From Chloroflexota bacterium (GTDB taxonomy: Bacteria; Chloroflexota; UBA11872; VXOZ01): a DNA stretch of 64,000 nucleotides. The first letter of the stretch is position 1. Each line of letters opens with the position of its first letter. The translations under genes and the position numbers were made by a program. Of the stretch, positions 57,001-60,531 are shown piece after piece. The DNA is taken from contig JAAXIC010000008.1 in NCBI GenBank assembly GCA_012270555.1, positions 64,426 through 128,425 of the forward strand, given 5' to 3'. The notes under the pieces are model-generated. The model saw only the letters and a program-made list of their open reading frames with translations, ran no database searches and was not told the origin of the DNA.

Positions 57001-58788
57001 TCACAATGTCTCGGAGCGAGAGTCCGCGCTATCTCGCACCATGGCGCAGAACTCCGCGATCGGCAGCGCGCCGCGGTTCCCGCCTGTGCGCAAGCGGACG
57101 TTTACCGCGCCGTCACTGATTTCGCGGTCTCCCACTACGGCCATATACGGTACTTTCTGGAGCTGGGCGTCGCGTATCTTGGCATTCATGCGCTCGGAAC
57201 GCGTATCTACCTCGACACGGAGATCGGATTGGGTAAGCGCAGCCCCAACCTGCTGCGCATACTCGTTGTGGCGGTCGGCAATGGGAATCACTGCGACTTG
57301 CACCGGCGCCAACCACACGGGGAACGCGCCGCCGTAGTGCTCGAGCAAGATGCCGAAGAAGCGTTCGATAGAACCGTAGAGGGCGCGGTGGATCATGTAC
57401 GGCCTGTGCGCTGCCCCATCTTCTCCTATGTATTCCAGCCCAAAGGTCTGCGGCAACCAAAAGTCGAACTGGATTGTCGAAAGCTGCCACGGGCGGCCCA
57501 GCACGTCGACAATCTTTATGTCAACTTTTGGCCCGTAGAACGCGGCTTCACCCTCCATGCGCTGGTACGACAAGCCAATGCTATCGAGGGCGCTGACCAG
57601 GCCGGACTCCGCCATTTCCCAGTCTGCCGCTTCGCCCGCGTACTTGCTGGATTCCCCCCTTTCCCACGTACTTAGCTCCAGTTTGAGGTCTTTGAAGCCG
57701 TACGTTTCCAGAATCTCCAGGCAGAATCGCAATACGCGCTCGAGTTCGCTGTCCATCTGTTCCGGTCGGCAGAACAAGTGGGCATCGTCCTGCGTAAAGC
57801 CCCGCGCGCGCAGCAAGCCGTGCAGCACGCCTGACCGCTCATAGCGATAGACCGTCCCGGCTTCCGTATAGCGCAGCGGCAGGTCGCGGTAACTGCGCGT
57901 GCGGCTCTTGTAGACCTGAATGTGGAAGGGGCAGTTCATCGGCTTCAAGTAGTACTGCTGCTCGTCGATCTCCACCGGCGCGTACATGTTCTCTGCGAAC
58001 CAATTCAGGTGCCCGCTGGTTCGCCAGAGATCCGCCCTGCCGATGTGGGGCGTGTAGATGAATTCATAGCCACCGGCCCGGTGGCTGTCGCGCCAGAAGT
58101 CCTCCATGACGCTGCGCACGTGTCCGCCTTTCGCGTGCCAGACCACCAGACCCGGGCCAATCTCTTCAGAAAAGCTAAAAAGGTCGAGTTCGCGGCCGAG
58201 CCGCCGATGATCGCGCCGCTCCGCCTCCTCCAAGAAGTTCAAGTATGTCCTGAGGTCCTTCTTGGACTCCCAGGCCGTGCCGTACACGCGTTGCAGTTGC
58301 TGGCGGTTCTCGTCACCCCGCCAGTAGGCGCCAGCCGTGCGCAGCAGCTTGAACGCCTTTACCGCCCCTGTCGTTTCCACGTGGGGGCCTTCACACAGGT
58401 CAATGAAGTCGCCGTTCTGGTAGATGCTCACGTGCTCGGCATTGGCGTCCCGCTCCAAGTCTTCGATGAGCTCGACCTTGTAGTCTTGACCTTGCTCCCG
58501 GAAGAAGGCTTTTGCCTCCTCAACCGGCAGCGTGGAGTGCTCAAACACCTGCTTCTGGCGGATTATTCGCTCCATGCGCTCGCTCAACGCATCGATATCT
58601 TCCGGAGTCAGCGTTCGCGGAAGATCGAAATCGTAGTAGAAACCATCCTCTATAGCGGGTCCGATGGTCAGCTTGGCTTCCGGCATGTATTCCAGCATGG
58701 CCGTCGCGAGCACGTGCGCAGCCGAGTGTCGCATTGTGTGCAAGCGCTCCGCACTTTGTCGATCGTCGTTTCCTTGTGATTGCGGCAT
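57001..58788 (-). CDS. thrS: Threonyl-tRNA synthetase lacking the TGS domain
   Basis: A class II aminoacyl-tRNA synthetase of 595 residues that charges tRNA-Thr. It begins directly with the editing domain (HSAAHVLATAM, then LCEGPHVETTG). The usual N-terminal TGS domain (about 60 residues) is missing. Catalytic motifs: YTPHIGRADLWRTSGH, KPMNCPFH with the zinc cysteine, TVYRYERSGVLHGLLRARGF and APVQVAVIPIADRH leading into the anticodon-binding domain. The start at 58788 is set by AGGAG 8 bases before ATG; the frame extends to 58866 but that part overlaps the leader terminator. The leader carries a threonine attenuator (see 58844-59098). Confidence 0.95.
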   Translation of the reverse strand: MPQSQGNDDRQSAERLHTMRHSAAHVLATAMLEYMPEAKLTIGPAIEDGFYYDFDLPRTLTPEDIDALSERMERIIRQKQVFEHSTLPVEEAKAFFREQGQDYKVELIEDLERDANAEHVSIYQNGDFIDLCEGPHVETTGAVKAFKLLRTAGAYWRGDENRQQLQRVYGTAWESKKDLRTYLNFLEEAERRDHRRLGRELDLFSFSEEIGPGLVVWHAKGGHVRSVMEDFWRDSHRAGGYEFIYTPHIGRADLWRTSGHLNWFAENMYAPVEIDEQQYYLKPMNCPFHIQVYKSRTRSYRDLPLRYTEAGTVYRYERSGVLHGLLRARGFTQDDAHLFCRPEQMDSELERVLRFCLEILETYGFKDLKLELSTWERGESSKYAGEAADWEMAESGLVSALDSIGLSYQRMEGEAAFYGPKVDIKIVDVLGRPWQLSTIQFDFWLPQTFGLEYIGEDGAAHRPYMIHRALYGSIERFFGILLEHYGGAFPVWLAPVQVAVIPIADRHNEYAQQVGAALTQSDLRVEVDTRSERMNAKIRDAQLQKVPYMAVVGDREISDGAVNVRLRTGGNRGALPIAEFCAMVRDSADSRSETL

Positions 58789-58843
58789 TTTTTGTTCTCC
58801 TAGATAAGCTCCGATTGAATGCAAGTCAGAATTCGGACAATAG

Positions 58844-58877
58844 AAAAAGCCTCTCGTGTCAGGCACATACGAGAGGC
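58844..58877 (-). terminator. Leader terminator of the thrS attenuator
   Basis: On the minus strand GCCTCTCGT (58877-58869) and ACGAGAGGC (58857-58849) form a 9-bp stem with an 11-base loop, followed by TTTTT (58848-58844). It lies about 55 bases before the thrS start. A premature stop here would shut thrS off, so its folding must be regulated. Confidence 0.85.
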
Positions 58878-58941
58878 CTCAGATCGCTACTTGCAAATAT
58901 AAGAATAGGTCTTACTGTCCTCTCGTCACATGCGCAGAGAG
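58844..58941 (-). promoter_or_regulatory. Attenuator of thrS: competing pause, antiterminator and terminator hairpins
   Basis: Four pairing segments lie in order on the minus strand: 1 = CTCTC (58941-58937), 2 = ACGAGAGG (58926-58919), 3 = CCTCTCGT (58876-58869), 4 = ACGAGAGGC (58857-58849) plus T5. Segments 1:2 pair through CTCTC/GAGAG, 2:3 pair over 8 bases (antiterminator) and 3:4 form the terminator. Segment 1 directly follows the Thr codons of the leader peptide, and segment 2 overlaps its last codons. A ribosome stalled at threonine would cover 1, free 2 for 3, and allow read-through. When tRNA-Thr is charged the ribosome covers 2, and 3:4 terminates. This follows trp-type attenuation logic. 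Pairings were found by eye. Confidence 0.75.
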
Positions 58942-59007
58942 TCCAGTCGTGGTGATACGGGCAATGCATCGCGATACGAGTGGAAATCCACTTGAACGAT
59001 ACACCAC
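58912..59007 (-). CDS. Putative thrS leader peptide with three consecutive threonine codons
   Basis: A 31-codon frame on the minus strand from GTG 59007 to TAA 58914-58912. AAGGAG (59020-59015) lies 7 bases before the start. It reads MVYRSSGFPLVSRC and then IARITTTGLSAHVTRGQ. The three consecutive threonines use ACC, ACG and ACT (58953-58945), and a fourth Thr (ACG) opens segment 2 of the attenuator. The peptide would have no function beyond sensing charged tRNA-Thr. It lies between a TTGACA promoter and the U-tract terminator, in the leader of the threonyl-tRNA synthetase gene. An overlapping ATG frame (59014) is too close to the ribosome-binding site. Confidence 0.7.
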   Translation of the reverse strand: MVYRSSGFPLVSRCIARITTTGLSAHVTRGQ

Positions 59008-59069
59008 ACAACATCTCCTTGGCGCGCTATGAGAAGCGCGTGACGTCGGAACAATAACCAACAGATTTG

Positions 59070-59098
59070 ATGCTACCGGAGCCAGCCTCTGCTGTCAA
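59070..59098 (-). promoter_or_regulatory. thrS: Promoter of thrS leader transcript
   Basis: On the minus strand a perfect TTGACA (59098-59093) and TAGCAT (59075-59070) are 17 bases apart. Transcription would start near 59063, giving a leader of about 275 bases before thrS. Confidence 0.72.
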
Positions 59099-59169
59099 CG
59101 ATACTCAGGCCCGCGAAAGCGACGTAGCACCAAGTGGCGGATTCCTCCAACGCCACCGCTCGCAGGCTC

Positions 59170-59198
59170 TTGCTGTGGACAAGGGCAAGGGCTAGAAT
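59170..59198 (+). promoter_or_regulatory. Promoter of the LarA-family gene
   Basis: TTGCTG at 59170-59175 and TAGAAT at 59193-59198 are 17 bases apart, 50 bases before the plus-strand gene. It is back to back with the thrS promoter. Confidence 0.45.
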
Positions 59199-59247
59199 CG
59201 ACAGGCAGGGAGTAACCTGAAGGACGCATGCTGAAAGGTGGCTTACG

Positions 59248-60531
59248 ATGCAGGTTGATCTCGCTTACGGCCGCACGGGACTAAGGGTAATGCTGCCGGA
59301 CGAGAACGTAGACATCGTAGAACCGGTCGATCTGCCGGGGGTCGCGGATCCTCTTGTTGCTCTGCGCGAATCATTGTGCCAACCCATAGGCGCGCGACCG
59401 CTTTCTGAGCTTGCCGGAGCGGAGGATACCGTCGCCATCGTCTTCTGCGACATCACCCGGCCCGCGCCGAATCACCTCATGGTACCGGCTATTCTCGCCG
59501 AACTGGCGCACATTCCCCGCGAGAACTTCGTGCTCATCAATGCCACCGGCATGCATCGTCCCAATACCGAAGATGAACTCCGCGGCATGTTAGGTGAGGA
59601 AGTCGTAGCCAACTACCGCATCGTCAACCATGATTCAACGGATAAATCTCAGCTACGTTACCTTGGAGAGACCTCCTCTGGCGGACCCGTATGGATCAAC
59701 ACCCACTACCTCGATGCCACAGTCAAGATCCTCACCGGCTTCATCGAGCCGCACTTCTTCGCGGGCTTCAGCGGCGGCGCAAAGCTCATTCTGCCCGGCA
59801 TCGCCGGCGCGGACTCCGTGATGCATAACCACAATGCAGCCATGATCGGCCACCCCAAAGCGACGTGGGGACACCTGGAGGGTAATCCCATCCACTGCGA
59901 GCAACGCGAAGCGGCTGCGCTCTGTCCGCCCGATCTCAGCCTGAACGTTACCATCAACAAGCGCAAAGAGATCACGGGCGTCTTTGCCGGCGAGATGCTA
60001 CAAGCCCATGCAGCCGGCTGCTCGTTCGCCCGCCGTTCCGTCATGCGGCCGGTCGCCGAACCGTATGACATCGTCATCACAACCAACAGCGGGTATCCCC
60101 TCGATCTAAACCTCTACCAAGCCGTGAAGGGCATGTCGGCGGCGTATCAAGTGGTGAGGCAGGGAGGCGCCATCGTCATTGCCGCCGAGTGCTCAGAGGG
60201 AATCGGACACGGTCACTTCGAGGACCTCTTGCAGGAGCGGGAAACGCCGGCCGCGTTGCTCGACCTGATAAACAGCCCGGGATTCTCCCGTTTCGACCAG
60301 TGGGAGGCCCAGATCTTGGCGCAGATCCTCTTGAAAGCGGAAGTGCACCTGTACGCGGAGAATCTCTCGGACCAGTCCATTCAAGACGCGCACCTGACGC
60401 CCTGCCGTTCGATTGAGGAAACCGTGACCGCCCTGCGAGAGAAATTCGGGCCGGGCGCTCGTATCTGTGTCCTTCCCATGGGGCCCTTGACCATTCCCTA
60501 TATCGCCGAGCCGGCGTTGGCAACGGTCTAG
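59248..60531 (+). CDS. LarA-family nickel-pincer-type racemase/epimerase
   Basis: A 427-residue protein of the lactate racemase (LarA) family, whose characterised members use a nickel-pincer nucleotide cofactor to racemise 2-hydroxyacids. Conserved segments: FCDITRPAPNH, NATGMHRPNT with a catalytic-type His, EPHFFAGFSGGAK with a His and the lysine that tethers the cofactor, and NSGYPLDLNLYQAVKG. The larB, larC and larE genes for cofactor assembly are not in the window, so they must lie elsewhere if it is active. Family members act on lactate, malate, phenyllactate or sugar acids, so the substrate is open. AAGGTGG precedes the ATG. Confidence 0.86.
   Translation: MQVDLAYGRTGLRVMLPDENVDIVEPVDLPGVADPLVALRESLCQPIGARPLSELAGAEDTVAIVFCDITRPAPNHLMVPAILAELAHIPRENFVLINATGMHRPNTEDELRGMLGEEVVANYRIVNHDSTDKSQLRYLGETSSGGPVWINTHYLDATVKILTGFIEPHFFAGFSGGAKLILPGIAGADSVMHNHNAAMIGHPKATWGHLEGNPIHCEQREAAALCPPDLSLNVTINKRKEITGVFAGEMLQAHAAGCSFARRSVMRPVAEPYDIVITTNSGYPLDLNLYQAVKGMSAAYQVVRQGGAIVIAAECSEGIGHGHFEDLLQERETPAALLDLINSPGFSRFDQWEAQILAQILLKAEVHLYAENLSDQSIQDAHLTPCRSIEETVTALREKFGPGARICVLPMGPLTIPYIAEPALATV

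Follow-up and report, generated by a model that had tools for sequence, protein, structure and literature searches.

A candidate threonine-codon leader-peptide attenuator upstream of thrS in a Chloroflexota bacterium

What controls the synthesis of threonyl-tRNA synthetase (ThrRS) in a Chloroflexota bacterium whose thrS gene is preceded by a short frame with clustered threonine codons and by an intrinsic terminator? Leader-peptide attenuators are known for amino-acid operons and for E. coli pheST, and in E. coli ThrRS itself binds near the thrS start, at an operator with anticodon-like hairpins that cover the ribosome-binding site of thrS, and acts on translation. The locus considered here lies on the minus strand of a 64-kb stretch of DNA (64,000 nucleotides, called the window throughout), for which an earlier note had proposed attenuation by a threonine-containing leader peptide. 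The comparison of related leaders and the RNA folding described below point to the same answer: thrS is probably governed by a ribosome-mediated transcription attenuator with a Thr-codon leader, which accounts best for the observations.

Parts of the thrS leader

In the Chloroflexota class of the window genome (G000), 41 genomes were examined; its genus is represented by six genomes, five of which have thrS in the assembly. Six leaders were available, namely those of the window, of four congeners and of one syntenic contig in bin G034. They are closely related to each other, and the ThrRS of the six leader-bearing loci is 84-100% identical to that of the window. The G034 locus (L171, G034:C12:120000-139000) comes from a contig binned with another family; it shows synteny with the window, and a second thrS on it is preceded by this leader. 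The contig is probably a binning mix-up or belongs to an unsampled relative. The features of the window's leader, in the direction of transcription, are the following.

59093..59098 (-): -35 hexamer TTGACA, unchanged in 6/6 leaders
59070..59075 (-): -10 hexamer TAGCAT (TACCAT in L008), spacing 17 from the -35 hexamer
59015..59019 (-): leader Shine-Dalgarno sequence (SD) AGGAG, 10 nt ahead of the start codon, unchanged in 6/6 leaders
58912..59004 (-): leader frame with GTG start, 30 codons MYRSSGFPLVSRCIARITTTGLSAHVTRGQ and TAA stop (58914-58912)
58997..59004 (-): 5′ arm GUGUAUCG of a hairpin, holding the leader start codon; changes mostly G-U to A-U, pairing kept
58964..58971 (-): 3′ arm CGAUGCAU of the same hairpin, just ahead of the Thr codons
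58945..58953 (-): putative regulatory codons ACC ACG ACT (Thr-Thr-Thr), the first ACC unchanged in 6/6 leaders
58937..58941 (-): segment 1, CTCTC, which can pair with segment 2; kept in 4/6 leaders
58919..58926 (-): segment 2, ACGAGAGG, left arm of the antiterminator, conserved
58869..58876 (-): segment 3, CCTCTCGT, common to antiterminator and terminator, conserved
58850..58857 (-): segment 4, ACGAGAGG, right arm of the terminator, conserved
58844..58848 (-): U-run of the intrinsic terminator, TTTTT
57001..58788 (-): thrS, threonyl-tRNA synthetase, 595 aa, with its ATG at 58788 and its own AGGAG at 58801-58797

The promoter, ribosome-binding site, Thr frame, pairing segments and T run described in the earlier note were all found on the minus strand where it had placed them, and in order, and its naming of the downstream gene as thrS is borne out by full-length matches in relatives. 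In the alignment of the six leaders the promoter, SD, start codon, first Thr codon, segments 2-4 and U-run are all kept. A promoter scan over a 701-base stretch returned two sites, TTGACA-17-TAGCAT among them, with 0.4 expected by chance, and about 55 nt separate the intrinsic terminator from the start of thrS. The frame itself needs a correction, from the 31 codons first read to 30 codons plus TAA: the conserved start is the second GTG (59004-59002), the sole start codon common to the six leaders that lies before the Thr codons and in frame with them (ATG in L008). In thrS of G250 and G262 an in-frame TGA was considered and dismissed: its position close to the C-terminus makes it most likely an ordinary stop codon.

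The core of the window's leader peptide is shared by L004, whose peptide ends in GLSA, and reads ITTA in L005, ITTT in L006, ITAPT in L007 and ITPT in L008. The conserved run of Thr codons that had been predicted therefore holds only in part: all six leaders retain the first Thr codon, but TTT is intact in three of them and the cluster is weak in the other three (TTA, TAPT, TPT), where two Thr are kept within 2-4 codons. Taken alone, such a run is unremarkable: the 64-kb window has 217 ORFs of 12-60 codons with an SD ahead of them, and TTT occurs in 5. The weight lies on the combination of parts and on their conservation. Neither third-codon-position bias nor a clear amino-acid constraint was found across the six leader frames, in which other frames are open too, and the conserved stretches of the frame follow an RNA hairpin and not the residues. 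Leader translation is thus unsupported by the pattern of substitution, and the argument for the frame comes from the SD, the start codon, the Thr codons and the placement of the stop. The G005 leader (L004, 1087-1411) has an early TAG just ahead of segment 2; a ribosome terminating there would still cover segment 2.

Competing stems and the folding switch

Segments 2, 3 and 4 make up the triple ACGAGAGG / CCTCTCGT / ACGAGAGG-CTTTTT, that is, a word, its reverse complement, and the word again with five Ts. Of 2000 dinucleotide shuffles of the leader, none held such a triple at a word length of 6-8 and two did at length 5; the two strands of the 64-kb window together contain a single occurrence. 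RNA folding of 59063-58844, the check suggested in the earlier note, yielded -76.6 kcal/mol (z -2.4) with both the terminator and the 1:2 hairpin formed.

Among the six leaders, the 2:3 antiterminator is paired in 100% of its cells, a figure that drops to 40-75% once the pairing is slid by 1-3 columns, and antiterminator and terminator cells are likewise 100% paired, against 29-75% overall in the slid controls. In L005 the end pair has changed from A/U/A to G/C/G in segments 2, 3 and 4 at once, which preserves both alternative stems. The shuffle controls for covariation were not significant (80 and 97 of 500) because the leader rows are few and close, so that the support is one of consistency and not of statistics. 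Segment 1 is less constant: CTCTC:GAGAG pairing is available in four of the six leaders, being lost in L007 and poor in L008, and alternatives such as UCACC:GGUGA are possible. Of the covarying stems that the earlier note had expected to be conserved, 2:3 and 3:4 are present in six leaders with one triple substitution, but 1:2 is not kept throughout. The bases directly past segment 2 (window 58909-58918, ANAGNAANAC) are also conserved in the six leaders.

These observations bear on the reading that the terminator is a chance one or the leader unregulated. Short Thr-rich frames are indeed not rare, as counted above, but the conservation of competing stems and promoter in six genomes, the triple substitution and the failure of the shuffles to reproduce the triple leave this reading next to no probability.

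The proposed switch was examined by masking, in which the RNA covered by a ribosome (leading edge 15 nt beyond the start of the A-site codon) was removed from each of the six leaders and the remainder was folded. With the ribosome on the Thr codons and nascent RNA through segment 3, 7-8 pairs of the 2:3 stem form in 6/6 leaders; once the ribosome has reached the stop codon, 2:3 is impossible and 3:4 forms with 8 pairs, again in 6/6. The first Thr codon lies 24-29 nt from segment 2 in all six, and, counted from where segment 2 begins, the stop codon lies between -6 and +21 nt. If the remaining leader is instead folded at equilibrium, three of the six (L001, L004 and L008) favour the terminator even when the ribosome sits on the first Thr codon. 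The switch therefore needs cotranscriptional kinetics, with 2:3 formed before segment 4 is made; trp attenuation likewise relies on 2:3 forming ahead of segment 4.

More specifically, RNA polymerase would start near 59063, giving a leader of about 220 nt, and a ribosome would initiate at AGGAG-N10-GTG and read 30 codons. Two outcomes are then envisaged: (i) with ample charged Thr-tRNA, the ribosome would reach the stop codon and mask segment 2, 3:4 would pair, and transcription would stop at 58844, before thrS; (ii) with scarce charged Thr-tRNA, it would stall on ACC ACG ACT, segment 2 would stay free, 2:3 would pair before segment 4 is made, and thrS would be transcribed.

Threonine codons and the start-codon hairpin

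A sensor of leader translation without threonine specificity, in which any slowing of the ribosome would lead to read-through, might account for the eroded Thr run in L005, L007 and L008 and for the incompletely conserved 1:2 stem. Such a sensor is nonetheless very unlikely, given that in every leader the invariant first Thr codon is followed, no more than three codons on, by at least one other Thr, and that among five synthetase genes such a leader occurs only at thrS. Indeed, no terminator leader was found before serS, proS, hisS or glyS of the same genus, so that the leader is specific to thrS among the genes tested.

A second alternative takes the terminator and antiterminator as real but switched by an RNA binder, e.g. 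ThrRS or tRNA-Thr at the start-codon hairpin, with Thr-codon stalling playing no role. Its main basis is the hairpin GUGUAUCG/CGAUGCAU, overlooked by the earlier note, which could be a binding site and is better conserved than the coding pattern: its helix cells are 98.5% paired in the six leaders, the substitutions being mostly G-U or U-G to A-U or U-A, and a Cys to Tyr change in L008 (UGC to UAC) alters the residue yet preserves the pair. It is also consistent with the established autoregulation by ThrRS in E. coli. However, the inner loops of the hairpin differ among the leaders, the SD and start codon are kept (including the change of GTG to ATG), the spacing from Thr codon to segment 2 is kept, and the leader is without a T-box motif or Rfam match; control by an RNA binder is considered unlikely, and attenuation by a ribosome translating the Thr codons is preferred.

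Within that preferred reading, the hairpin may, as a guess, tune the ease of leader translation or limit initiation, and the leader SD is able to pair with AUCACC. A more elaborate scheme can be offered with low confidence: the SD and start codon would lie in a hairpin (GUGUAUCG/CGAUGCAU, with GGAGAU/AUCACC below) that has the first Thr codon in its lower strand, stalling would free the leader ribosome-binding site too, and the whole would be an attenuator with an initiation gate that took the place of a T-box within a single bacterial class.

T-boxes, related leaders and known systems

The earlier note had left room for a T-box or another riboswitch model covering the region, and none does: a cmscan of window positions 58000-60000 with all 4227 Rfam families (E up to 1) gave no match, T-box (RF00230) and Thr_leader (RF00506) included. 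The UGGN antiterminator motif of T-boxes is absent from the leader. A T-box reading and a His-frame reading of the leader were weighed and dropped. In the window genome a single T-box was found, ahead of trpE (L169, G000:C15:119800-123500). T-boxes stand directly upstream of thrS in families f2 and f5 (G022, G012, G010, G016), and the T-box core motif was seen ahead of thrS in 60 of the 203 upstream regions examined, mostly Chloroflexota; it is absent before thrS in families f1 (that of the window), f3 and f4. T-boxes of Chloroflexi have been described for ileS and trp genes (PMC2494555).

Searches with a covariance model of the leader recovered it only in the window's genus and on the syntenic G034 contig. 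Matches in f49 (L256, minus strand 1501-1656; L257, minus strand 1501-1631) were rejected as homologues, being weak, placed ahead of a dihydroorotase-like gene and sharing mainly the terminator with its U-run. These f49 regions have a terminator leader of their own with a conserved CCGGAAAACCCGGGAATTGTC-like stretch, perhaps a pyrimidine attenuator.

Short Thr-codon frames (RVTT, TATI/TATT, TITT, TVTT) precede thrS in families f3 (genera g3, g5) and f4 (g9, g13) as well, adjoining a C-rich/G-rich hairpin; in g3 and g9 a T-rich terminator is present too. In L122, L246 and L015 (f4) and in L121-L127, L018-L029 and L119 (f3), such frames (TTITT, TVTT, RVTT, TATI) lie 100-220 nt upstream of thrS. 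They are possibly relatives or parallel cases of the attenuator. The cores of f1 and g3 differ mostly at third positions (CGT ATC ACC ACG versus CGC GTC ACT ACC). The f3 and f4 frames have no good SD and poor start sites, g3 has only one or two Thr, and the folding switch is inconsistent in these leaders. Moreover, the thrS tree places f1 outside the group uniting f3 and f4 with the T-box families f2 and f5 (89/86 support) and requires two changes between leader and T-box. Such leaders may have been gained on two occasions, thrS may have moved, or part of the likeness may be due to chance; given the poor SD, the inconsistent switch and the two changes, the f3 and f4 leaders were set aside as proof. 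When the 203 thrS upstream regions were passed through a strict leader-plus-terminator filter, the Thr case lacking a T-box motif came out of f1 and a single f3 region only. Other residues such as Arg were picked out as well, which makes the filter weak evidence by itself.

Several known systems can be compared with the leader. A thrS T-box, as in B. subtilis, f2, f5 and much of Chloroflexota, also senses Thr-tRNA charging and antiterminates thrS, but the window leader has neither the motif nor the covariance match. The E. coli operator also controls thrS; here, an intrinsic transcription terminator is found instead. The attenuators of amino-acid operons and of pheST (the latter cited in PMC1262725) share the short cognate-codon frame, the mutually exclusive antiterminator and terminator, the intrinsic terminator and, for pheST, a synthetase target; they differ from the present leader in that here the target is thrS, the phylum is Chloroflexota, the start codon lies within a conserved hairpin and the 1:2 stem is loose. 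Leader attenuators have been predicted for trpS and leuS in Streptomyces (PMC1262725).

A further report concerns Streptomyces lividans, in which a thrL leader (MKRVRPFLETTPGFVPAR, two Thr) stands directly before thrS, termination being unclear (PMC8079986). It is, as here, a Thr-containing leader ahead of thrS, but its transcript is leaderless with one hairpin and no U-run, unlike the full 2:3/3:4 switch with U-run of the present leader, and there is no evident sequence resemblance. The earlier note's statement that it knew of no peptide-based thrS attenuator thus stands for Chloroflexota, where no thrS leader peptide was found in a literature search that had most subscription journals outside its reach, but is qualified by the S. 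lividans report. In bacilli, the T-box of hisS has been exchanged for a leader peptide (PMC2965389), a similar exchange of sensor at a synthetase gene, with a different gene and phylum.

Leader-peptide attenuation is a classic mechanism, and what draws attention to this case is chiefly the phylum, the target gene, the T-box exchange and the start-codon hairpin. The case is a reminder that such leaders escape Rfam-based scans. It would add Chloroflexota to the groups in which a synthetase gene is under classical leader-peptide attenuation, and would offer an example of a class with thrS under a T-box in some families and apparently under Thr-codon leaders in others, which makes a sensor exchange at one gene open to comparison.
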